A DNA stretch of 27,618 nucleotides from a virus, in IMG/VR virus record IMGVR_UViG_3300007722_000087, positions 1 to 27,618 of that record; one strand, given 5' to 3'. Of the stretch, positions 3,982 through 26,059 are shown one piece after another. Every line of letters starts with the position of its first letter. Position 1 is the stretch's first letter. Below the pieces are notes generated by a model, which worked only from the letters and a program-made list of their open reading frames with translations, was not told where the DNA came from and did not search any database. The position numbers were made by a program, and so were the translations under genes.

Positions 3982-4373
3982 AGGCAGGCAAGCAGCTGCA
4001 CCCTAACTGCAAATTTAAGGATGGGATGCCAGATATGATTGTCACCATGATGTCTGAGGGCGCGAGCAAAACAGAAGTTTGTGCGCACCTTGGTATCGAT
4101 AAAGACACACTGAATGAATGGAAAAAACCTAACGGTGTATATTTTATTGACGCAGTTTCCGTCGCCGTAAAAAAAGGCGAGCTTTGTTCTCAAGCATGGT
4201 GGGAGCGCGCAGGTCGATTGTCACTCAAGGATAAAGAGTTCAGCTACACCGGTTGGTACATGAACATGAAGAACCGTTTTGGCTGGGCGGATAAACAAGA
4301 GCAAATTATTAGTGCAAACGTAAACCACTCTGTTGACAGAGATATTCTCGATAGATTTGAAAAAGAGTTTTGA
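3969..4373 (+). CDS. terS: Terminase small subunit
   Basis: The product has 134 residues. MIVTMMSEGASKTEVCAHLGIDKDTLNEWKK is an HTH of the small-terminase type, covering residues 23-53 approximately. The following segment, with FIDAVSVAVKKGELCSQAWWERAGR and GWYMNMKNRFGW, matches the conserved helical body of this family, in which WxMNMKNRFGW is a hallmark. It recognises the packaging start site and hands DNA to the large subunit in headful packaging. It overlaps the large-subunit region by a few bases and is shorter than P22 gp3 (162 aa). Any pac site is likely within or near this gene but cannot be identified by eye. Confidence 0.85.
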   Translation: MSNVEAGKQLHPNCKFKDGMPDMIVTMMSEGASKTEVCAHLGIDKDTLNEWKKPNGVYFIDAVSVAVKKGELCSQAWWERAGRLSLKDKEFSYTGWYMNMKNRFGWADKQEQIISANVNHSVDRDILDRFEKEF

Positions 4374-4375
4374 TA

Positions 4376-5896
4376 ATGTTAGCGCCAAAACTAGCCCCAC
4401 AAGATGAACTAAAATATAAACTGCTAGGCTCGTTTCTGGATTTTACACGCTATTTTTACAAGATACGCACGGGGCGGAAGTTTGAATTATCACAGCCTAC
4501 GTCGCGTGAATCTCACTACGTCACCGTATCTAAAGCGCTCACCCAGTGTCATCGCGGGGAAATTCCTAATCTGGGCATTAACATCCCGCCACGCTACGGA
4601 AAGACTGAGCTATTAATTCATTTTGTCGCGTGGTGCTTAGCGCGTAATGCAGCATGTAACTTTATTTATGTTTCATATTCACACACATTGGCCACAAAAC
4701 AAACGGCAACAGTAAGAGAAATTGTGTCTATGCCCGAGTATCGCCGATTGTTTGGTGTAGACCTTGCTGACGATACGCAAGCCAAGGATAACTTTGCAAC
4801 GACTGCTGGCGGTAGCGTGTACGCCGTTGGTGCGGGTGGTTCGATTACAGGCCGTGGCGCAGGTATCGCAAATTTAAAAGACTTCGGGGGTGCGATAATT
4901 ATTGACGACATTATCAAACCACAGGATGCGCTCTCAGATACAATCAGGGATTCGCGCAATGACTGGTACAAAAACACACTGCTCAGTCGCCTTAATAATC
5001 GCAATACCCCCATCATATTCATTGGCCAACGAGTTCACGAGGATGACCTGGCTGGTAACCTACAATTAGATTTTGATGGCAGAAATTGGCAGTGGTTGAT
5101 TCTGCAGGCGCTCGATCATCTAAACCACGCGCTAATGCCAACGCTGCACACAACAGAAGAATTACAGATGATGGCAAAAAAAATGCCATATGAGTTTGCA
5201 TCGCAGTACCAACAAAATCCTCAAAAACCTGGCGGTAGCGTGTATCAGCGTGAATGGTTTGTGCTATTGGATATTATCCCATCAATGCTGATAACGTTTA
5301 TTACCTGCGACACCGCAGAAACGGATAAAACCTATAACGACGCAACTGTGTTTAGCTTCTGGGGTTTGTACAAGATAACCCAGCATGGCATTGACAGTGA
5401 TTTATATGGCCTGCATTGCATCGATTGTAACGAGATGCGGGTTCAGCCCAAGGATTTACAAAGCGAGTTTTTAGCGTTCTTTGCTGAGTGCTCACGCTTC
5501 CCAGTCAAGCCAAAACAGGCGTACATCGAGAAAAAATCAACCGGAACCACGATGTTTTCAGTATTGCAATCAATGCGAGCGTTAGCAATCATAGCTATTG
5601 AGCGTGACGGCACAAGCAAGACTGCGCGGTTCTTACAGGCTCAGCCGTTTGTTGCGGCGCACCAAGTATCCATTACTCGTGGCGCTAGACATGAAAAGTT
5701 AGTACTAGACCACATGGAAAAAATTACGGCGAATAATACGCATAGACATGACGACATCGCAGACACAATGGCCGACGCAATTAGCCTAGCGTTTATCGAT
5801 AAAACTATCTTAGGTTTTGTAGCACCCAGTGAGCAAGTAACCTATCAAAGTGTTTATCGACACAAGAAACCCGTTAATTTTGGAGGATTTGAATAA
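4376..5896 (+). CDS. terL: Terminase large subunit
   Basis: The product is the packaging ATPase-nuclease, about 506 residues (P22 gp2 is 499). Walker A is PPRYGKTE near residues 71-78, Walker B is AIIIDD near 173-178, and the coupling motif IIFIGQRVHEDDL lies near 213-225. The C-terminal RNase H-like nuclease shows its acidic residues in TFITCDTAE (about 312) and HDDIADTMADA (about 460). I prefer ATG 4376. TTG 4370 is in frame and would overlap the terS stop, adding two residues. The stop TAA shares a base with the portal ATG, so the genes are coupled. It powers DNA entry through the portal and cuts concatemers. Confidence 0.93.
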   Translation: MLAPKLAPQDELKYKLLGSFLDFTRYFYKIRTGRKFELSQPTSRESHYVTVSKALTQCHRGEIPNLGINIPPRYGKTELLIHFVAWCLARNAACNFIYVSYSHTLATKQTATVREIVSMPEYRRLFGVDLADDTQAKDNFATTAGGSVYAVGAGGSITGRGAGIANLKDFGGAIIIDDIIKPQDALSDTIRDSRNDWYKNTLLSRLNNRNTPIIFIGQRVHEDDLAGNLQLDFDGRNWQWLILQALDHLNHALMPTLHTTEELQMMAKKMPYEFASQYQQNPQKPGGSVYQREWFVLLDIIPSMLITFITCDTAETDKTYNDATVFSFWGLYKITQHGIDSDLYGLHCIDCNEMRVQPKDLQSEFLAFFAECSRFPVKPKQAYIEKKSTGTTMFSVLQSMRALAIIAIERDGTSKTARFLQAQPFVAAHQVSITRGARHEKLVLDHMEKITANNTHRHDDIADTMADAISLAFIDKTILGFVAPSEQVTYQSVYRHKKPVNFGGFE

Positions 5897-7827
5897 TGGC
5901 ATTACCCGGCAAAAGGATTCAAGACCAATTGCCACGCTTAAAAGAATGCGTGGAAAATTGGCAAGAGTATTTCTCTGAAAACAATGAACGGTTTCATAGG
6001 TCAAAAAAGTTTGTATTTAAAAACACGTTGAGCGACAGCGACAAGGCTAAGCTAGTGGCGTTAGGCATGCCTACACTGCAATTTAATGTGCTGGAAGGGT
6101 ATGTGTCACGGCTGCGTGGTGAGTTTGCAATTGTTGAGCCCCAAATTGGCGTGCAAAGCAGAGACGAAAACAACGATGATGCTCCCATGATAAAAACAGT
6201 AACCGCCATTGTCAGGTCAATTCTGTACCATTCTCAGAGCCAAGACGTTGATAATCAAATTTACAAAGATATCTTAGTGGGTGGATTTTCTGTGATGAAA
6301 GTGTACACAGACTATGTGGACGATCACAGCATAGAGCAAGATGTATTTCTTGGTACGACATTTGACCCGACGCTGTGCGGGTTCGACCCCTATGCGCGAA
6401 AGCCACACAAAGGCGATGGGAATTATTGCTATGAATTGTTTCCTTTGTATACAAAAGATTTTAAAGCACAATATCCAAATGTTGATTATTCAGAGTTGAG
6501 CTTTGTAAAAGATAATGGCGTGTTTAATTGGTCATACACAAGTGCGAAGCAAAAAGAAATTTTGTTTGTGTGTGATTTTTTTGAAAAGAAAAAACGCACC
6601 GTTACGTTTTATTGCGTAACAACCCCATCACAACAAGACCCAACAGAAACCTATCAGCAGTATTTAACCGAAAAGCAATTTGAGCAATATATTTCAGGCT
6701 TGGTAATTCCGCCGGAAGAAGGCCAGTACAAGGTTATGAAGCGTGAGGCGTTTGATATTTATCGATACCGATTCATGGGTGATAAAGTTTTGGAGTATGA
6801 AAAAACTGCGTTCACGCAGTTGCCAAGGATATTTGTTGATGGCAACAGTGAAACTATTGAACAAAAACAAATGACGCGTGGTTATGTCTATAATGCAATG
6901 GATGCTCAGCGTGCTCGTAACCTTTCTGGTAATAGTCTTCTGGATGAAATTCAAAACATGCGCAAGACAACTATCATTGCGCCAGAGCGATCGCTGCCCA
7001 CCAGTCCGGCTGACAGAGAGTTGTGGGAAAATCCGCAGCGCACAAGTGCCGCGTTGCCATACCGCGATATCGATCCACTTACTAATATGCCAATCCCATC
7101 ACCGCAAGTATTTCCGAGAGCGCCAATACCGCCTGAGCTATTCCAGTTTTTTAACGGATCAATCCCAGCAATCCAATCTGCATTAGGTGCGTACAACCAA
7201 GCGACGGGAGCGGGGGAAAATAATAGCTCTGGTGTAGCGATTATTAAATCCACAACAAACTCTAATGCTGCTGCGAAGCCGTACATGATGAATTACATAT
7301 CTGCCATGAACCAAGCGTCACGGGCTATTATTGATATTATCCCGATATATTACACCACGCCACGCACGGTTCCTCTTAGAGCACCTGATGGTAGTCGCAC
7401 ATTTCAAAAAATTAATGACCCCAACAATCAAAACAGTGTCATGCTGCGTTACGCGCCTAATGAGCTAAATGTATATGTTGAAGAAGGGGTTAATTTTGAG
7501 ATTCAAAAACAAGAGTCAGTCACTACATTGCTTGGTTTATCTCAACAGTTAAGTACGCTTCAAAGTATACTAAATGGCCCTGGATTGCCTATTGTATTAG
7601 AAAATCTGGATATCAAAGGCATTGAAGAATTAAGAGAAGTGTCGGCTGAATTCTTAAAGCAGCAGCAAGCTCAGCAGCAAAGTCAAGGCAATCAACCTGA
7701 CCCAACAACAATAGCGCTTCAACTCGAAGGCCAGAAAGTGCAGATTGAAGGACAGAAAGCCCAGTCTGAAAATGAGTACAAACAAAGCTCGTTACAGATA
7801 GAGCAGCAGAAAGTTAGCGGCGACTAA
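5896..7827 (+). CDS. P22-like portal protein, main part
   Basis: The frame has 643 residues of P22 gp1-type portal protein, the dodecameric DNA gate at the capsid vertex. Typical features are the N-terminal NWQEYFSENNERF region, FNVLEGYVSRLRGEF, and FDPYARKPHKGDGNY. VAIIKSTTNSNAAAKPYMMNY is in the region that forms the stem and crown helices. The last 60 residues are Gln-rich and helical (KQQQAQQQSQGNQ, then repeated Q-x-E-G-Q-K). The frame ends at TAA 7825-7827, earlier than P22 portal (725 aa). The same frame stays open for another 68 codons after the stop, so the portal may be split or extended by read-through. Confidence 0.93.
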   Translation: MALPGKRIQDQLPRLKECVENWQEYFSENNERFHRSKKFVFKNTLSDSDKAKLVALGMPTLQFNVLEGYVSRLRGEFAIVEPQIGVQSRDENNDDAPMIKTVTAIVRSILYHSQSQDVDNQIYKDILVGGFSVMKVYTDYVDDHSIEQDVFLGTTFDPTLCGFDPYARKPHKGDGNYCYELFPLYTKDFKAQYPNVDYSELSFVKDNGVFNWSYTSAKQKEILFVCDFFEKKKRTVTFYCVTTPSQQDPTETYQQYLTEKQFEQYISGLVIPPEEGQYKVMKREAFDIYRYRFMGDKVLEYEKTAFTQLPRIFVDGNSETIEQKQMTRGYVYNAMDAQRARNLSGNSLLDEIQNMRKTTIIAPERSLPTSPADRELWENPQRTSAALPYRDIDPLTNMPIPSPQVFPRAPIPPELFQFFNGSIPAIQSALGAYNQATGAGENNSSGVAIIKSTTNSNAAAKPYMMNYISAMNQASRAIIDIIPIYYTTPRTVPLRAPDGSRTFQKINDPNNQNSVMLRYAPNELNVYVEEGVNFEIQKQESVTTLLGLSQQLSTLQSILNGPGLPIVLENLDIKGIEELREVSAEFLKQQQAQQQSQGNQPDPTTIALQLEGQKVQIEGQKAQSENEYKQSSLQIEQQKVSGD

Positions 7828-7830
7828 CAA

Positions 7831-8034
7831 TTGAAACAGTTGCAGTTGATGCTTGATTATAGGGTGGCCGTTGCTAAATTACAGACCGCCCAAAGCGCAC
7901 AAGACACTGAAAATGCTCGCACTGAAATTGATAGGCTAGAAATTGCTATTGACCAGTGGAAGTTTATGGTTAACAAAAACCATGAGCTACATAAAGATAG
8001 TGTTGCCAGTTCCAATGCAGGCGTTCAACTGTAA
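7831..8034 (+). CDS. In-frame portal C-terminal coiled coil after a single stop
   Basis: The frame is the same as the portal's, separated from it by one TAA and one CAA codon. From TTG 7831 it gives 67 residues, from ATG 7849 it gives 61. The sequence is helical with heptad character (LQTAQSAQDTENARTEIDRL...), which fits the alpha-helical barrel at the end of P22-type portals. Neither start has a Shine-Dalgarno, so independent initiation would be weak and coupled re-initiation or stop read-through is more likely. Together with the main part, 711 residues would result, close to P22's 725. It may alternatively be a recent nonsense mutation. P22 portal tolerates barrel loss. Confidence 0.55.
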   Translation: MKQLQLMLDYRVAVAKLQTAQSAQDTENARTEIDRLEIAIDQWKFMVNKNHELHKDSVASSNAGVQL

Positions 8035-8047
8035 CTTTTAACCTCTT

Positions 8048-8073
8048 GCCCCTTAATTGGGGCTTTTTATTTT
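8048..8073 (+). terminator. Strong intrinsic terminator inside the late operon
   Basis: GCCCC-TTAATT-GGGGC (8048-8063) is followed directly by TTTTTATTTT. It lies 14 nt behind the portal extension and in front of scaffold and coat. Full-strength termination here would silence the head genes, so antitermination, partial read-through or a new promoter is implied. Confidence 0.8.
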
Positions 8074-8237
8074 CTCCTCCACGCCACTGTTGACTCGCCA
8101 AAATGTCACGCATCTCATGATGATACTAGCCCTAGAACTTTATAGAGCTAGGCCACTGAGCTTGTCAGGTGAACAAGTCGGACTGCGACGTATGCAGGGT
8201 ACCGTGACGGGGTTAATAGTCGACAAGAGAGGTACTA
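8074..8237 (+). other. Non-coding, structured-looking leader before scaffold
   Basis: The 164-nt stretch looks richer in G and C than its surroundings and contains several small inverted repeats: CCTAG/CTAGG (8131-8135 and 8148-8152), CTTGT/ACAAG (8161-8165 and 8173-8177) and GTACC/GGTAC (8199-8203 and 8231-8235). The last partner overlaps the AGAGAGG Shine-Dalgarno of scaffold, so folding could reduce translation. No clear promoter or tRNA was found. A 63-codon frame through it is unlikely to be coding. Confidence 0.4.
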
Positions 8238-9050
8238 ATGTTCGATGAGCATAGTGCAGCGATAGGGCAGGCTGATAATAATTCTGCTTCAGGATTGACA
8301 ATAGATAGTGCGCCAACACAGGAAAGTGAAAGCACGCCATCCGTAAATGAAGTTTCAACATCGGAAGATAATAGCAGCCATCATCAAGGGATACCCCAAG
8401 ATGATTTTAACGGTATAGCGGCAGCTATTAAAAAGAAGTATTACGCTAAAGGTCAGCGTGATGCTCAAAAGCAATATGACGGGCAGCAGGCACCAGTAGC
8501 TCAGTCGGAGTATCAGCAATATAGTGATGCACCGCCTGCAAACGTGTCGCAAGAGCAGTACCAGCAACCAAATGATATGGCTGGGCTTGTTCAAAATGAG
8601 ATTGCTAAACTTTTAGATATTGCAGAGCGTTCTAACAATGAGCGTCAAGCAAATCAAAAAGCACAATCTGTTGCACAGCAATTGCAATCTAAGATGACAG
8701 AAGCATCGGGGCGTTATTCTGATTATAGAAATGTATTATCAAATGTAAAAATGTTTACTGATACTCCACAGATATTGGATTTAGCCAATACTGTAGATAA
8801 TGCGGGTGATGTTTTATATCACTTAGCAAAGTCGCCAAATAGAATCGGTAATATTTTAGCGTTGTGCCAGCAATCACCGCATTTAGCCACTATGGCGATT
8901 CGAGAAATTTCTGGGCAGATTAATGCGAATAAAGCGGGTGCGAGTGCATCTGTCGTTCCTGACCCAGTTAATCCCATTAGACCCTCTCGTGTAGGCACTG
9001 ATGATGGCAAGCTAGGTGTGCGCGATTACAAAAACATGTTCCGCGTGTAG
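8238..9050 (+). CDS. Scaffolding protein
   Basis: The product has 270 residues (P22 gp8 is 303) and is placed between portal and coat as in P22. The N-terminal half is acidic, Ser/Gln-rich and low in hydrophobic residues. The middle (LVQNEIAKLLDIAERSNNERQANQKAQSVAQQLQSK) is helical. The short basic C-terminus, with KNMFRV, is where scaffolds bind coat. It directs procapsid assembly and portal incorporation, then leaves before or during packaging. An AGAGAGG Shine-Dalgarno lies about 6 nt before the ATG. Identification rests on position and composition, because scaffold sequences diverge fast. Confidence 0.8.
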   Translation: MFDEHSAAIGQADNNSASGLTIDSAPTQESESTPSVNEVSTSEDNSSHHQGIPQDDFNGIAAAIKKKYYAKGQRDAQKQYDGQQAPVAQSEYQQYSDAPPANVSQEQYQQPNDMAGLVQNEIAKLLDIAERSNNERQANQKAQSVAQQLQSKMTEASGRYSDYRNVLSNVKMFTDTPQILDLANTVDNAGDVLYHLAKSPNRIGNILALCQQSPHLATMAIREISGQINANKAGASASVVPDPVNPIRPSRVGTDDGKLGVRDYKNMFRV

Positions 9051-9107: not shown

Positions 9108-10367
9108 ATGGCTGACATTCTACAACAGGTTCAAACCTACAACGACTCAAACCTTGGCGCTTTGCAAAATCAAATGCCAGTGGTGAGCGCTGCTAATACT
9201 AAATTTAAAAACTTTGCCGAAGATACCGCTAAGAACTTAGGCGATACAGTTGGATTCGATTTACCACCACGTTTTACGGTTAACGATACCTTAGTTGCTA
9301 CATTCCAAGATACTGAACAACGCGTTCAGACATTGACGGTAAATTCAGCTAAAAACGTAGCTTATAACTTTACAGCACAACAATTCATTTTTAACGTAAA
9401 AGATTACATGGGTAAGTTTGGTATGAATGCCATGGCTGAGTTGGCGACTAAAGTTGAGACAGATGTTTCGACGGTAGCCGTTAACAACACTTATCGCACA
9501 GCAGGCACCGGCCTTTCAGGCACATTAAGCTCCTACACAGCACTTGCTCAGGCAATCGCAGCGTATAAAAACTACGGTGCTCCAAAAGGCAATATCAAAG
9601 TATTTTTACCAGACACAATCGTGCCTACAATTATTGGTAACGGTTTAGGGCAGTTTACGCCAAAACGAAATGACGCAGAAGCTAATAGCTGGCAGCTTGG
9701 TGATTTCCAAGGCGTAAATTTCTATAGCTCAAACTTATTGCCACCATTTGTGGCGGGTGTTGCTGGTCAATCTGCATCTGAAGTTGTTATTAACAGTATC
9801 GACTCAACAGGTACGGTATTAACCGTGACGGTGTCATCACTATTAAGTCAAGCGGGTGCATTTGCTGCAGGGGATATTTTAACCTTTGGCGATAACACTA
9901 CTGTTGGCGGAACAGCTAAATTACGTTTCTTAACATTTGTTGGCCATCAACCATGCGCTCAAAAAGTGCAGGTGCGTATTACAGCAGCATCAGACACAAA
10001 TGGTTCTGGCGTGGCAACGTTGACTGTCTCACCTGCATTAATTGGTCCGACGCTTGCAACTACTTTGGGTGCTCGTAATCAAAACATTAACAAAGATATT
10101 GCTTCAACGATGACAGCAAGTGTGTTGCCGTCTCATCGCGCGGGCTTTATTTGTGGTGGTGATGCGCTTTATGTTGGTATGCCTAAATTGCCTGATGAAG
10201 ATCCATTCAAAACAGCAATTTCTACCGATCCAGATACAGGTGTGTCAATGCGTACGTACTACGGTGCTACGTTCGGACAAAACCAGCGCGGCATCGTGCA
10301 TGACGTGCTTTATGGTTATACGGCAGTGCCTGAATATATGATGCGTTTAGCGTTCGAAGACGTATAG
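9108..10367 (+). CDS. Major coat protein, P22-like
   Basis: The product has 419 residues (P22 gp5 is 430) with an HK97-type fold. The P22-like N-terminus is MADILQQVQTYNDSNLGALQ, and VGFDLPPRFTVNDTL follows. The region from about residue 222 to 320 (VINSIDSTGTVLTVTVSSLLS and onward) is a beta-rich insertion where P22 coat has its I-domain. The C-terminal part, HRAGFICGGDALYVGMPKLP, leads to GIVHDVLYGYTAVPEYMMRLA, typical of the family. A GGAG Shine-Dalgarno precedes the ATG. It forms the capsid with scaffold as the assembly partner. Confidence 0.93.
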   Translation: MADILQQVQTYNDSNLGALQNQMPVVSAANTKFKNFAEDTAKNLGDTVGFDLPPRFTVNDTLVATFQDTEQRVQTLTVNSAKNVAYNFTAQQFIFNVKDYMGKFGMNAMAELATKVETDVSTVAVNNTYRTAGTGLSGTLSSYTALAQAIAAYKNYGAPKGNIKVFLPDTIVPTIIGNGLGQFTPKRNDAEANSWQLGDFQGVNFYSSNLLPPFVAGVAGQSASEVVINSIDSTGTVLTVTVSSLLSQAGAFAAGDILTFGDNTTVGGTAKLRFLTFVGHQPCAQKVQVRITAASDTNGSGVATLTVSPALIGPTLATTLGARNQNINKDIASTMTASVLPSHRAGFICGGDALYVGMPKLPDEDPFKTAISTDPDTGVSMRTYYGATFGQNQRGIVHDVLYGYTAVPEYMMRLAFEDV

Positions 10368-10374
10368 GTCTGAG

Positions 10375-11073
10375 ATGCTAGCCAGTGAATTAATAGCAAA
10401 CGCATGGTATACGTCGGGCATCGTTGCGCGACAATCCGAGTCTGTCAGTGGAGCACAATCTGCTGACGGATTGCGTTTGCTTAATTCATTATTAACGGAG
10501 TTTGCTATCGATGGCGCAAACGTCCCTTACTACACAGTGGCCTCGATAAATTTAGTCGTGGGTCAGGAAAAATACAATGTTCCTGGTCTTATTTTTGCAG
10601 AGTCTGTTACATTCCAAGATGGCGATATTCGATGGCCTATGTGGGAAGATAAGCGTAAAGCATATTTTTCAACCGGTCGCGTTAACGATATTCAGTCATT
10701 GCCTTTTCACTATCATCAGGAGCGTGCAAAAGGCGGAACCGATATTTATTTGTATTTCTTGCCTGATAAAGCCTATCAATTAAATATCGTTGGCAAGTAT
10801 ATGCTAACCAACGTATTGATGAGCACTAATTTAAATACAGGGCTTGATAATTTTTATATTAACTATCTTGAATATGCTTTAGCTGAGCGACTGTGTGCGT
10901 GGTACAACGTAGACATGCCATCAGGCGCTGCAAAAATATTGTTACGCCTTAATGGCGTGATATCAAAAATATCTACACCTGATTTAGAAATAACAACAGT
11001 AAATATGTTGTCTAGTGAAGGCTCACCCAATTGGGCTCAGCTCAATATTGGCAAGGGGTGGACACCCTCATGA
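10375..11073 (+). CDS. Tail accessory / DNA stabilization protein, gp4-like
   Basis: The product has 232 residues (P22 gp4 is 166). The N-terminal helical domain LIANAWYTSGIVARQSESVSG leads to SADGLRLLNSLLTEF, the pattern of P22 gp4, which docks on portal and starts tail assembly. The extra length is in the middle and end, including a beta-rich section around VPYYTVASINLVVGQEKYNV. It lies right after coat in P22 order and its stop overlaps the gp10-like ATG. It plugs the portal after packaging and forms the adaptor for the next tail factor. Confidence 0.82.
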   Translation: MLASELIANAWYTSGIVARQSESVSGAQSADGLRLLNSLLTEFAIDGANVPYYTVASINLVVGQEKYNVPGLIFAESVTFQDGDIRWPMWEDKRKAYFSTGRVNDIQSLPFHYHQERAKGGTDIYLYFLPDKAYQLNIVGKYMLTNVLMSTNLNTGLDNFYINYLEYALAERLCAWYNVDMPSGAAKILLRLNGVISKISTPDLEITTVNMLSSEGSPNWAQLNIGKGWTPS

Positions 11074-19301: not shown

Positions 19302-19349
19302 CTTTGAGCAACATGGAATAAATTAACACAGTTGAATGAGGAAATTACA

Positions 19350-22307
19350 ATGATAGAGCTACCACCACTTTCTGCAACAGATGCTAGAATATCTAGCCTC
19401 GATGCAGCTACTTCTTTAGCCACAAACGACCTGTTTTTAGTTGTTGACGTTTCAGACGTATCAATGGCACCGACCGGTACAGATAAAAAATCCACCGTTC
19501 AAACCGTGTTTAACACCTCAGCCGTGCCGATTTTAAATCCTGCGGCTAACTTTGCGGCACTAGATGCTCGCGATAAAACTAATTTAGTCTCTGGCGCTAT
19601 CTGCTATTTAACAAATGGTGATTTATATCAATTTGTTGGTGGCGCATGGGTAGAGCATAGCTCTGATTCGAATGTTGCATTGCCTGATTGTATTATTGAT
19701 GGTGTAGGTGGTGCCGTTGATACCTTTGCAAGCTTTAATGCGGCGGTCTTAGCGGTTAAAAAATCCCCTAAAGTAACGGCGAATGTCTCCGAAACAGTAG
19801 CCGCTACTCTTATTAATGACATGACCGTTTACACGGAAGAAGGGTTTACTCTTGCATTTGGAAATTTTGAACCCAAAAGTAATGGTCATAGCATAACCTT
19901 TAACATGCTTAGTGCTAATTCAGCGGTAACATGGACACCTCTATCATCAAAACCATTTTGGGACGGCGCATCCGCATCAGAACAGATTATTTTAACGGGT
20001 CCAGGCACTTTTTTAAATAATGGCGCTGTAGCTAATACTCCGCTGACGGCTGGCAATTACCAGACTGTTAATTGCGGATTTTATAAAGCAGGCGATGCTG
20101 AAAATGCAGGGTTAATTTTTACCGCATTAAATTCCAGCATGTCAAAATGCATTGTATACACTACAAGTCCAGCGTGTAATTTGCCAGTTGTTAATAATGG
20201 CGGATTAATATCAAGTAGCATTCTACGACCAACTTCTTTTGCGCCGCGAGATTTTTCTACATTTACAGCAAGTTCAGTTTCTAATGAATTAACCTTCCCT
20301 GACGGCACTGAATTAGTTTACACAACAGGCACACCGTTTACCGTTTCAACAACAGCCACACTGCCAGAGCCATTAGTTACAGGCACAAAATATTATGCAA
20401 TTTACGTAAACAATACAGTTTTAAAACTAGCAACAACATTTGCCAATGCAAAAGCTGGAGCAGCTATCACGCTAACCACAGATGGAAGCGGTAATATGAC
20501 AGCAACAACGGCCACAGTATTTTATTCATCAGAAAATGATTTATCTCAGCTAATACAAACTCAATTTAGCGGCACTGTAGAAAGCATCCCTGTGGTTATA
20601 GGTGGGCTTGCTCAAAACGTAATTACTAGAGAAGTGTATTTAACAATTGAAACTGGCTGTGCAAACACAGTTATTGATAACGTTCAAACCAATGATGGCA
20701 CTATCAATATTTTGCATAACGACTGTTCGTTAGCAACATCCCTAGATTCTTCTGGCATAACAGTGTTAGCCGGAACAACCGGCACGTCAATTGAAAACAG
20801 CAACACGGGCACATATGCGCCAAACGGATGCCCTGTGCGCCGCGCTTTAAATTATCCGGTAATTGGAAACAGCGCAGGCGATAGTGATGAAGGCATAGAA
20901 TTATTTCAAGCTGGGATTGATGCGACAGGCGCTACTAATCATTATTCAACCGTTGTGGCTGCTTACGCGGCTGGCAAGAAAATTGATTTGGTGCTAGCCA
21001 ATACAGTCGAAACGTCTGACTTGGTGTTATCAGCCACTAGTGAAGTAGCCGTTACAATCAATCAGGGGTTATCTTGGGACATTGCGGCAACACAAATTGA
21101 CGGCACCGCAGGCGGAACAGCATTTACATTGTCGTGGGTAGACCAATCTGCGGTATTTAAGTACGCAATGACGGGTACAAATTTACCATTTGCAGCATTT
21201 GATATTAATTCAACCATTTCATTGCTTGCCAATGGCGGAACAGTACAAAACACATCCGCTGTCGACAATACTTACATCACGGGAAACGGCGATTTATTTG
21301 TTAATGGCGCATACTTTTTACTAGCTAACCAATACCACAGCGGTATCAAAACAAACCCTTATGCTGAAATTAAAGGGGTTTGGTTTCAAGGCGCGGGGGT
21401 GGCTTGTGAAGTTGCTATAGAAACCGCTGGTGGCGTAATTAACGGCACAGTTATTACAGGCCAATACAAAACTGATGGTGTATTAATTCTTGCTACAGCC
21501 CCATCGTTTGTACGTGATACAACTATCGATATTAATGGCGCGGCACAACTTGAAGCACAGGGGTTATTCGATGGTTTAATTTACACAGATACAAGCAGTC
21601 TTGTGCTTACAGCGCAAAGCGATACGGTTATTGCAAATATTCCAAAACCAAGCGAAGGTATATTGTCGCTCGCAATTCCAAGCGGGGTTGAAAATGTCGA
21701 CGTGTTGGCAGTAACTTTAACCGGCGTTTTATCATTGGCCGTGGATAACACAGCAGAAAATATTACATTTTTACGTGTTACATTTCAGCAAGACACAATT
21801 GTTTATGGTTCAAATATTAATTTCATTGGCTGTAAATTCTATGGCAACTTAACCACGGATGAAGATGCGACGGGTGAATTTATTGGTTGCGAAATCATTG
21901 GTGGCGGAACATTTACGGACGACGGTGATTTCAGATTATCTGGTAATGACTCAGCCATCGGAAATGATTACGCCCCAGCAATTGAATTCATTTCAACTAC
22001 CACGCAGCAAATGAGCTCTAAAGGCAAGTCTTACGTAGCTGAAAATGCAGCGCTAACAACATTTACATTACCAGCTACATTCCAAAAAGGCGAAATATTT
22101 AAAATTATTGGCAACAATGTTGGTGGTTGGAAGCTTGCACAGAATGCGGGGCAGCAAATATCTGTCTGCGACACAATAACTACTACCATCGGCGCGTCTG
22201 GGTATGTTCAATCAACAGCAGCGGGTGATTGTATAGAGCTTCTTGCCGTGACAGATAACACAGCATTAAGAGTTGTTGGATCCATGGGGAATCCAAACTA
22301 TTTATAA
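19350..22307 (+). CDS. Large tail fibre or tailspike
   Basis: The product has 985 residues from the ATG at 19350, with GAGG 8 nt upstream. The TTG at 19332 is rejected. The N-terminus, LPPLSATDARISSLDAATS, then NDLFLVVDVSDVSMAPTGT, is a common fibre start that attaches to the virion. Many short beta strands with Asn and Gly turns (GGLISSSILRPTSF and later GCKFYGNLTTDEDATGEFIG) fit a right-handed beta-helix. An inserted module (about 325-395) has TGTKYYAIYVNNTVLKLATT. The last about 90 residues are homologous to the next gene's C-terminus. No catalytic residues can be assigned. Confidence 0.75.
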   Translation: MIELPPLSATDARISSLDAATSLATNDLFLVVDVSDVSMAPTGTDKKSTVQTVFNTSAVPILNPAANFAALDARDKTNLVSGAICYLTNGDLYQFVGGAWVEHSSDSNVALPDCIIDGVGGAVDTFASFNAAVLAVKKSPKVTANVSETVAATLINDMTVYTEEGFTLAFGNFEPKSNGHSITFNMLSANSAVTWTPLSSKPFWDGASASEQIILTGPGTFLNNGAVANTPLTAGNYQTVNCGFYKAGDAENAGLIFTALNSSMSKCIVYTTSPACNLPVVNNGGLISSSILRPTSFAPRDFSTFTASSVSNELTFPDGTELVYTTGTPFTVSTTATLPEPLVTGTKYYAIYVNNTVLKLATTFANAKAGAAITLTTDGSGNMTATTATVFYSSENDLSQLIQTQFSGTVESIPVVIGGLAQNVITREVYLTIETGCANTVIDNVQTNDGTINILHNDCSLATSLDSSGITVLAGTTGTSIENSNTGTYAPNGCPVRRALNYPVIGNSAGDSDEGIELFQAGIDATGATNHYSTVVAAYAAGKKIDLVLANTVETSDLVLSATSEVAVTINQGLSWDIAATQIDGTAGGTAFTLSWVDQSAVFKYAMTGTNLPFAAFDINSTISLLANGGTVQNTSAVDNTYITGNGDLFVNGAYFLLANQYHSGIKTNPYAEIKGVWFQGAGVACEVAIETAGGVINGTVITGQYKTDGVLILATAPSFVRDTTIDINGAAQLEAQGLFDGLIYTDTSSLVLTAQSDTVIANIPKPSEGILSLAIPSGVENVDVLAVTLTGVLSLAVDNTAENITFLRVTFQQDTIVYGSNINFIGCKFYGNLTTDEDATGEFIGCEIIGGGTFTDDGDFRLSGNDSAIGNDYAPAIEFISTTTQQMSSKGKSYVAENAALTTFTLPATFQKGEIFKIIGNNVGGWKLAQNAGQQISVCDTITTTIGASGYVQSTAAGDCIELLAVTDNTALRVVGSMGNPNYL

Positions 22308-22832: not shown

Positions 22833-22851
22833 GGGCGGTGAAATGCCGCCC
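22833..22851 (+). other. Hairpin just before the secreted protein's ribosome site
   Basis: GGGCGG (22833-22838) pairs with CCGCCC (22846-22851) around TGAAATG. No T-run follows, so it is not a normal terminator. It sits between the fibre stop and the GAGGA Shine-Dalgarno at about 22857-22863. It may be an RNA processing or attenuation element. Confidence 0.4.
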
Positions 22852-22867
22852 CTATTGTGAGGAAATT

Positions 22868-25800
22868 ATGAAAATTTTTAATGAAAAAATATTTGCCGGA
22901 ATGCTTTTATTGTTTTTTAGTTTTTTTGCTCAGCAGAGCAATGCGGCAAGTAACACCGTATCAATTACACGAATAAACGGGATGCCAGCAAAAGTTATTG
23001 AAGGGACAACTCTTACCAACCTTACGTATAATATTCATAATAATAGTGATTCGGAAACTTTCAGTCTAGCATTTCCTGGCTTGCAAGGCGCTGGTATCAC
23101 CTACACCACAACCTGCGGAAGCTTGGCACCAAGTGCGGACTGTGGTTTAACGCTAACCTTTGTTGCTCCGATGTTGCCGCCAGCGTCCTATAACCATCCT
23201 TTTTCAATCACGGGGGCACCTTCGCCAACAATTGCTAATTTGTCGACTACGATTATTGCAAATCCAGGGCTAATAACAGTAAGCGCAAATATCTCCTTAA
23301 GTGGCGGGGCCTCTGACCCAACGCCAGATACTTTTGACATAGACCTTACTAGTACTACGCCAGGTGGCCCAACTTATCATTATACAAGCGTACCATTAGG
23401 TACATCGGCATTGTCACCACAAGTTCAAGGCGGCCATTATATTGAGCATATTTCACCAGCTACGGTAACAGGCGGCGCGGGCACTTATGACGCACCCACA
23501 GACACAACAGTTAATATTACTAGCGCAACAACGCTGCCATTTGTTTATACGCTTGAACAAAACCCAGAGGTGGACACTGATTTAACAATGCCTCTAGTAG
23601 GTTCTGCAACGTCAGACGTAACCATGGCTGGAACGGCTGGAACATTTGGCCCACATGCACAAGGCCCTGGATCTACAGACTTTGATCGCATGCCAGCAGG
23701 TTCGTACACGGTAACGGCTACTAATTATGTAGATACTAATGGCGATACAGAGGTTGCAGTGCTTTCAAACCCTTATACCATTTCGTCTGGATCGCATGTT
23801 GTTTCGTTCTCGTTTGCAGCAAAAGCTCCCACCACAGAACATGTTTCCACTGTTATCACAGCACCGAATTTACCTGCTGGTCAACCTGTTGCTGTCACAG
23901 CCACGGGAACGCCAACTTATGGCCCGCATAATCAAGCAGCCGGAACCACAGCATTTGATACCATGGAAGATGGAAGCTACACATTCTCAGCAGCAAATTA
24001 TACAGTAGGGTCAAATACTTATGTTGCAACAATCAGCAACCCAGTTGTAATTAATGGCTCAAGCACAAGCGTTGCTATTGTTTATTCTAAAGTAGCTCCA
24101 GGTGGTAATTATGATTGGCACCCATCTCGACTAGAAGATCTTGCTGATGATAATATTTTTGCAATTTTTTGGGGAGGTGGCAGCACTACAGCACCAGTTC
24201 ATATCAGCACCAACCCGCCCGTGAATCCTTTCTTGAATGCACAATTAGCGGCTTATGCATTAGATACTACGCCAAGACAATCCAACGCAGCAGTGCAAAA
24301 CTTTCCTAATTATATTGCGCAAGGCTCGGTTTCAGAATTTACACCAGACGTAACAACTCAAATGGGATCTCAAAAATTAGATATCGATTTTCATTACGAG
24401 GGCGGGGGCGATTCTAGCGCATCATGTGCTTGGGATAATAGCCTAGGTTACAATGTAGCACTTCCTGCCGCATCTGGAAGCATTGGAACATTAGCAGCAG
24501 GAACGTATAATATTATTGCGGATTATTACTTATATTCCGATCCTCCCGCTGGTTTTTTTGGAAAAATGTTTAATTCTGTAACAAGTTTATTTGGCGCTCC
24601 AAGTAACGGCGTACATTATTACCAAGGTGCGTTAACTATAACTAACACTAGCGGATTAAATTACGTTGTTAATGTTGTTTATACTGAGACAACCTCAGCG
24701 ATTACAGCGGCACCAAATTTATCTTTAGTGAAAAGAGTTACTTTGCCTGCAAATGCCGTTGTCACGTATACACAAACTGCACCACATTTGGGTAGCATCG
24801 TAACGCCGCCGCATTTAAATTTAAATGTTGATGGGTTGTGCTATTCGGTGTGGTATGAATCGGGCGGCTATGCTCCTCAGGTTGACAATATTGCAGCGCA
24901 AGCAGCAGCAGTAAAAGCGTCGAATAGTCACAATCTAATTGCTGGTAATGTGTTTTATACTACGCGCAATAGTGATTCTTTTGATTCGATTCATGATGAC
25001 TTGACTAATGACTATAGCTTAATATTTTATTTGTATAATTTAATGTGGGAAGCTCAGCGGATGCAATATCAACATGATCAAAACGATGTTGATATGGTAT
25101 TGTTAATCAATCCTGATTCAACGCAAGTTTTCCAAGGTTGTACACAATACTACTGCCCGATCATTTGGAAAGCAGGGATTACTCAAGACACTGTAAATCA
25201 ATTGATTCAGATTCCAAACTTGCTTGCAGATGTTAATGCAGCAGCAGATCGCATGGTAGCTAAAGGTTACCTAAGCTCTGGTGATGCTGCAACATTTAAA
25301 GCGTTAGTTGTGAGCTCTGGTATATTAACGCCTCCAGGCGGTAGCGGCAGAACGGTAGCTGGTGCGCCAGAATACTACTTGCTTCATAACTTGATCGTAA
25401 AACATTTTGGTCCTAACGTTCCGTTTGGTTATGGTCAAAATATTTATGATAATGCTAATCCATTAATGGCTGTGGGAACTCCGCCGGTTGCAAATGCTCC
25501 GTGGGAAACTGCATCTGTGACTTGGTTGCATAAAGTTAATCACCTTGGATACAGTCCTAGCGTAGTTTCTCAAGCAATTGCTTTTGATGCTGCAAAATAC
25601 GCGCAGTTTTTGAAAGACATGCATTACGCGAGCTATGCTGGAGATCCAAACGCGGCCTACGCGCCTGACTTTATTTATTATGATATCTATGAGCGCGATC
25701 CAATTCCTGGCGAAGTTGGTTCAGGACGCGTAATGAACGGCCCTGACTTAGATAGTTATTTTGAGTACATCAAAGACATTGACGCGCTTACTGCTAACCA

Positions 25801-26059
25801 ACCAATGGCAATCTGGCAAATACCTGGTTCTAGCTTGCAAGTGCAAGGTGATACGTTCACAGGTGTATTAGCTGGGACATGGCCGGATTATGTTTTTGGT
25901 CATCCAACTTTAAATAATGATATGAGTAATCTAGCAACATCATTAGGGATCCCAGCAATTGTATTTGTACCTTACTGGCAAACAAGCGTGTATTACACGA
26001 ATAATAGCCACGTAAATAATTTAGAGGATTATTTAAAGCTAACATCGGATTCCCCGTAA
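22868..26059 (+). CDS. Large secreted protein with beta repeats and a possible enzymatic domain
   Basis: The product has 1063 residues from the ATG at 22868, with GAGGA upstream; the GTG at 22838 is not used. It begins with a signal peptide (MKIFNEKIFAGMLLLFFSFF, cleavage near SNA-A). Residues 30-130 look Ig-like, and about 225-410 holds two near-repeats of roughly 85 residues (TYGPHNQAAGTTAFDTMEDG vs TFGPHAQGPGSTDFDRMPAG). From about 425 (DWHPSRLEDLADDNIFAIFW) a large globular domain runs to the end. Notable segments are YSVWYESGGY (about 655), DMVLLINPDS (about 745) and DFIYYDIYERDP (about 935), the last with clustered acidic and aromatic residues as in glycoside hydrolase active sites. No family is assigned. 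The stop overlaps the nuclease ATG. Confidence 0.62.
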   Translation: MKIFNEKIFAGMLLLFFSFFAQQSNAASNTVSITRINGMPAKVIEGTTLTNLTYNIHNNSDSETFSLAFPGLQGAGITYTTTCGSLAPSADCGLTLTFVAPMLPPASYNHPFSITGAPSPTIANLSTTIIANPGLITVSANISLSGGASDPTPDTFDIDLTSTTPGGPTYHYTSVPLGTSALSPQVQGGHYIEHISPATVTGGAGTYDAPTDTTVNITSATTLPFVYTLEQNPEVDTDLTMPLVGSATSDVTMAGTAGTFGPHAQGPGSTDFDRMPAGSYTVTATNYVDTNGDTEVAVLSNPYTISSGSHVVSFSFAAKAPTTEHVSTVITAPNLPAGQPVAVTATGTPTYGPHNQAAGTTAFDTMEDGSYTFSAANYTVGSNTYVATISNPVVINGSSTSVAIVYSKVAPGGNYDWHPSRLEDLADDNIFAIFWGGGSTTAPVHISTNPPVNPFLNAQLAAYALDTTPRQSNAAVQNFPNYIAQGSVSEFTPDVTTQMGSQKLDIDFHYEGGGDSSASCAWDNSLGYNVALPAASGSIGTLAAGTYNIIADYYLYSDPPAGFFGKMFNSVTSLFGAPSNGVHYYQGALTITNTSGLNYVVNVVYTETTSAITAAPNLSLVKRVTLPANAVVTYTQTAPHLGSIVTPPHLNLNVDGLCYSVWYESGGYAPQVDNIAAQAAAVKASNSHNLIAGNVFYTTRNSDSFDSIHDDLTNDYSLIFYLYNLMWEAQRMQYQHDQNDVDMVLLINPDSTQVFQGCTQYYCPIIWKAGITQDTVNQLIQIPNLLADVNAAADRMVAKGYLSSGDAATFKALVVSSGILTPPGGSGRTVAGAPEYYLLHNLIVKHFGPNVPFGYGQNIYDNANPLMAVGTPPVANAPWETASVTWLHKVNHLGYSPSVVSQAIAFDAAKYAQFLKDMHYASYAGDPNAAYAPDFIYYDIYERDPIPGEVGSGRVMNGPDLDSYFEYIKDIDALTANQPMAIWQIPGSSLQVQGDTFTGVLAGTWPDYVFGHPTLNNDMSNLATSLGIPAIVFVPYWQTSVYYTNNSHVNNLEDYLKLTSDSP

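Follow-up and report, generated by a model that had tools for sequence, protein, structure and literature searches.

A polymorphic in-frame stop codon in the P22-type portal gene of a phage genome fragment

The portal gene of this phage raises a simple question: why does its reading frame continue for 68 codons beyond an in-frame TAA? The window, by which we mean the whole 27.6 kb stretch of DNA analyzed, is a fragment of a tailed-phage genome (IMG/VR virus record, a bacterial virus). A preliminary description had noted that the portal gene was split by this single stop and had proposed a recent nonsense mutation trimming the barrel, regulated read-through, or coupled re-initiation. The split frame is as described, and our analysis favors the first of the proposals; the gene is very probably a P22-type portal gene with a recent nonsense allele that arose by ordinary mutation and is segregating in the phage population.

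The portal gene and the frame beyond its stop

Genes in the window are ordered as terminase small and large subunits, portal, scaffold-like, major head protein, adaptor, head-closure, and tail genes, with the portal between terL and the scaffold and coat genes, as expected of a P22-like portal. Megablast of the window against phage records gave no match, and a protein search of phage records returned portals of 21-24% identity at most. The 643-residue product matched Pfam PF16510 (P22_portal) with 286 bits (cut-off 26.1, E 7e-85), and the portal also matched PHROG 156. No family match in Pfam or PHROG was found for the scaffold-like gene. Two very large proteins of 991 and 1073 aa, encoded at 19332-22307 and 22838-26059, were also without any Pfam or PHROG match and are possibly ejection or internal virion proteins. 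An Rfam match to MIR848 at 99-164 was far under threshold and was dismissed as chance. Features of the locus are listed in Table 1.

The portal gene begins with an ATG that has GGAGG upstream, and its open reading frame ends with GTT AGC GGC GAC TAA. Beyond this stop the frame goes on with CAA TTG AAA for 68 codons, up to a second TAA at 8032-8034; the previously reported total of 711 residues is correct (643 + 68, or 712 if the stop position holds a residue). Such a stretch stayed open in 1.1% of composition-keeping shuffles. Codon use after the stop was coding-like, as in the phage's own genes, with only 0.35% of off-frame windows scoring as high, and the intergenic DNA 3' of the distal stop was not coding-like. 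The open stretch beyond the stop is more than chance.

The 68-residue post-stop peptide was scored against a tail profile built from relatives, excluding the window and a near-identical contig, L002. The peptide scored 14.3 bits, compared to a highest value of 11.1 bits among 2000 shuffles; of the other frames, four yielded a score, in each case a negative one. A conserved segment, DTENARTEID, is present in the peptide; E672 was kept in 68 of the 82 relatives compared and D679 in 44 of 82. Judged by sequence, the stretch past the stop is old portal coding sequence. A terminator-like hairpin begins 13 nt after the distal stop and is a candidate for marking the original end of the portal gene, although chance matches of such quality are expected in a region this size. 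A match to the post-stop peptide in another locus (L006) was dropped as an unrelated ORF in a non-portal context.

Table 1. Features of the portal locus, in window coordinates
Feature	Position	Strand	Remarks
Terminase large subunit (terL)	4370..5896	+	Intact; TAA stop overlaps portal ATG
Portal gene as read in the window	5896..7827	+	643 aa; P22-like: clip, wing, stem, crown, barrel base
In-frame TAA	7825..7827	+	Glutamine codon in L002, TAA in L003
Putative distal barrel tail	7828..8034	+	68 codons + stop; part of the unbroken gene in L002; homology to the C-terminal tails of relatives
Intrinsic-terminator-like hairpin and T-run	8048..8073	+	Consensus match; 1.7 kb scanned, with about 1.6 chance matches expected
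Conserved structured leader	8080-8237, kernel 8201-8221	+	Directly upstream of the scaffold-like gene
Scaffold-like gene	8238..9050	+	Named by position alone, between portal and major head protein
Major head protein	9108..10367	+	Intact

Near-identical contigs and distant relatives

When the entire viral collection was scanned by pattern with the stop base left free, only two contigs were found, L002 and L003. L002 (IMG/VR, sample 3300007523) is 99.86% identical to the window over 5883 nt. At the site of the TAA it has a codon for glutamine that differs by one base, and its portal is unbroken at 712 aa. L003 (L003/L005, sample 3300032462) has 1 mismatch to the window in 4211 nt, located at 10913, and carries the TAA. 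The portal stop codon is therefore polymorphic among near-identical phages, because L002 has glutamine while L003 shares the TAA, which is present in 2 of the 3 near-identical contigs (the window and L003). Chance error in L002 explains the sense codon poorly, since about eight random changes in 5883 nt were estimated to convert the stop to sense in only roughly 0.3% of cases.

The eight differences between L002 and the window lie at 4318, 5873, 7166, 7199-7200, 7825, and 9156-9157. All are nonsynonymous or stop-removing, and two adjacent doublets are among them; for this reason L002 may hold some sequence errors. They reflect either sequence error or variation that is very recent and unselected. 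Polarizing them against relatives gave a mixed outcome: L002 has the commoner state at portal residue 424 (Q in 20 of 82 relatives, P in 3), and its state at portal residue 435 and head protein residue 17 looks odd compared to the relatives.

More distant relatives were collected by a profile scan that gave 292 viral relatives, of which the best 80 were kept, plus 8 in bacterial genomes, a Legionella maceachernii prophage among them. The comparison set of 82 distinct relatives was drawn from these best 80 of 292 and the bacterial loci. All 82 have an uninterrupted portal, and each locus with a portal ORF closing inside the fetched DNA has an unbroken frame to a single stop. L007 and L008, found in terminase and portal searches, share 48-49% identity with the window in terminase and about 33% in portal, and their uninterrupted portals have at least 731 residues and 713 residues, respectively. 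The portals of the Legionella maceachernii prophage (L095, 723 aa) and of the IMG/VR relative L010 (684 aa) are, together with that of L008, also from IMG/VR, homologous at 34-43% identity and have the same type of tail; unlike the window, all three have uninterrupted frames.

Tail length, counted from the alignment column of window residue 590 up to the portal end, ranged from 92 to 160 residues (median 123.5) in the 82 distinct relatives (from the best 80 of 292 viral relatives and the bacterial loci), compared to 123 for the full frame of the window and 54 for its truncated product. As aligned, the predicted truncated portal is shorter than that of every relative compared, and the full frame is typical. 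The portal tail seems to be under selection, because all relatives compared keep at least 92 tail residues, and the loss of 69 residues might be costly. This counts against a nonsense allele, yet the stop is present in two of the three near-identical contigs.

Two features expected of a nonsense allele were thus found, namely a near-identical genome in which the codon is intact and homology in the sequence past the stop. Comparison of relatives for conservation of the stop had been suggested in the preliminary description; the stop was in none of the 82 compared and is a sense codon in L002, and these uninterrupted frames support its option of a recent nonsense mutation. It had also considered that relatives might be uninterrupted and this genome a unique mutant. 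The relatives are indeed uninterrupted, but the window is not unique, as L003 shares the TAA.

The truncated portal and competing explanations

An AlphaFold2 model of the full-length L002 portal had a mean pLDDT of 76 and a pTM of 0.63, and Foldseek matched it to the P22 and Sf6 portals (best 8tvu, E 2e-27). C-terminal helices were predicted with moderate confidence at residues 606-664 and 670-711; residue 643, the last encoded before the stop in the window allele, falls within the first of these. P22 gp1 (PDB 3lj5, 5jj3; PF16510) belongs to the same family and has a core followed by a long C-terminal helix, at a sequence identity of about 16-18% and a length of 725 residues compared to 712 for the full frame of the window. 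The P22 portal is unbroken, whereas the window frame is cut after residue 643.

The family profile aligned to P22 portal residues 57-712, barrel included (E 9e-10). Because this alignment runs through residue 712, the post-stop segment is assigned to the distal barrel; its conserved part corresponds to the P22 SEDARAN segment at about 680-686, and the window stop corresponds to P22 residue 650, an approximate position from the same alignment. The P22 barrel comprises residues 603-725, of which those after 631 are unfolded in the procapsid and take up their fold while the head is being filled with DNA (PMC5290284). The P22 dif1 mutant produces gp1 without residues 676-725, and these last 50 residues are dispensable (PMC4992974). 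Both dif1 and the window allele lose the distal barrel including the SEDARAN segment, a loss that is tolerated in dif1; the loss in the window allele amounts to 69 residues, and its product ends roughly 25 residues before that of dif1, an approximate figure.

With a nonsense allele, the ancestral product would have been one polypeptide of about 712 residues, forming a dodecamer whose long C-terminal helical barrel points into the capsid. Translation of the window variant would end after residue 643, so that the product would comprise the portal core plus the first 50 or so residues of the tail, and the distal barrel would be lost. The 68 post-stop codons would now be essentially untranslated 3' sequence. 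The truncation is probably tolerated, since P22 dif1 dispenses with its last 50 portal residues; by the same analogy, the truncated portal would assemble and package DNA, perhaps with an altered distal barrel, and would be functional or mildly defective. Members of one phage population may differ in the distal barrel of the portal, which fits the dispensable tail of P22 gp1. As a finding the stop allele matters little, and it is a caution that nothing more than a nonsense polymorphism may lie behind a split frame in a single contig. Should the truncated allele be common and fit, it would offer a natural test of the role of the distal barrel, with the other relatives surveyed keeping at least 92 tail residues.

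Other explanations have to be weighed against a recent nonsense allele. We regard it as unlikely that the TAA of the window and L003 is an error of sequencing or assembly and that the real phage has an uninterrupted gene. The intact frame is universal in the relatives compared and present in near-identical L002, and L003, which equals the window except for one base, could stem from related data; however, two separately named contigs in different IMG records share the base and yet differ at 10913. Programmed read-through of the TAA, giving a minority of long subunits and a mixed portal ring, is very improbable. In its favor, the frame past the stop is unbroken, has coding-like codon use, and shares homology with real tails, but an intact downstream frame would be expected anyway in a recent mutant, and the stop is absent from near-identical L002 and all 82 relatives compared. 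TAA is recognized by both bacterial release factors, which counts against read-through. Predicted RNA structure 3' of the stop folded no better than shuffles (z 0.85), and a search of the window for a suppressor tRNA found no tRNA of any kind. The read-through context proposed earlier stands in part, in that CAA-TTG does follow the stop. In the CARYYA read-through described in plant RNA viruses (PMC3542737), CAA follows the stop as it does in the window; the hexamer here, CAATTG, does not fit, with TTG in place of YYA and a final base of G rather than A, and the two systems also differ in the kind of ribosome and in that the window stop is not conserved. We found no positive evidence for regulated read-through. 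A variant in which low-level read-through keeps the stop allele at high frequency, with mixed long and short rings altering DNA filling or ejection, has just as little probability.

Re-initiation at TTG 7831 or ATG 7849, which would yield a separate barrel peptide of 61-67 residues, is less probable still. These potential restart codons lie only 3 and 21 nt past the stop, but neither has a Shine-Dalgarno sequence, in agreement with the preliminary description, and the same residues lie within one polypeptide in L002 and the relatives. Coupled re-initiation gained no positive support, with no ribosome site at either codon. The probability that TAA has been reassigned to glutamine in the phage or its host is close to nil, even with a glutamine codon one base off in L002. 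TAA terminates the majority of the window's genes, and does so at the expected length; the terminase and head proteins are also as long as those of their relatives. Moreover, the terminase TAA overlaps the portal ATG, which indicates that TAA functions as a stop in this phage. An alternative genetic code was ruled out by the many TAA-terminated genes of normal length.

A conserved leader upstream of the scaffold-like gene

The intergenic stretch between the portal and scaffold-like genes (8035-8237) holds a block that recurs in distant phages. Its kernel, ACCGU-NNC-GGGGUUAAUA-GNN, was found in 60 viral contigs. In 57 of 65 loci it lies 739-939 nt upstream of a same-strand major head protein gene, a position immediately ahead of the scaffold-like gene. 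Both variable pairs of the covarying kernel stem form at 34 of 49 distinct sites, compared to 17 on average and 27 at most in 2000 shuffles that took no account of kinship, and the inner variable pair forms at all 49. Directly 5' of the kernel is a hairpin, likewise covarying, with at least 4 pairs in 31 of 34 distinct loci, formed by many different stems (CCUG/CAGG, CUCA/UGAG, CUUG/CAAG, and CUUAUU/AAUAAG, for example). Rfam gave no match for the leader, and its folding by energy alone was not significant, perhaps due to pseudoknots.

The leader may be a cis-acting RNA, so far undescribed, through which phage scaffold synthesis is controlled. Scaffold synthesis in P22 is autoregulated after transcription, which makes the leader a candidate operator. 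It looks more novel than the portal stop and more deserving of its own study.

In some relatives a kernel-type unit occurs twice in tandem (L028:7132-7201, L080:7098-7183, and L026:6892-6979), an arrangement that suggests an internally duplicated leader in the order hairpin-kernel-hairpin-kernel. One relative also has a cluster of five tRNA genes (L028:6567-6951) that follows the portal and precedes the leader by a few hundred bases.
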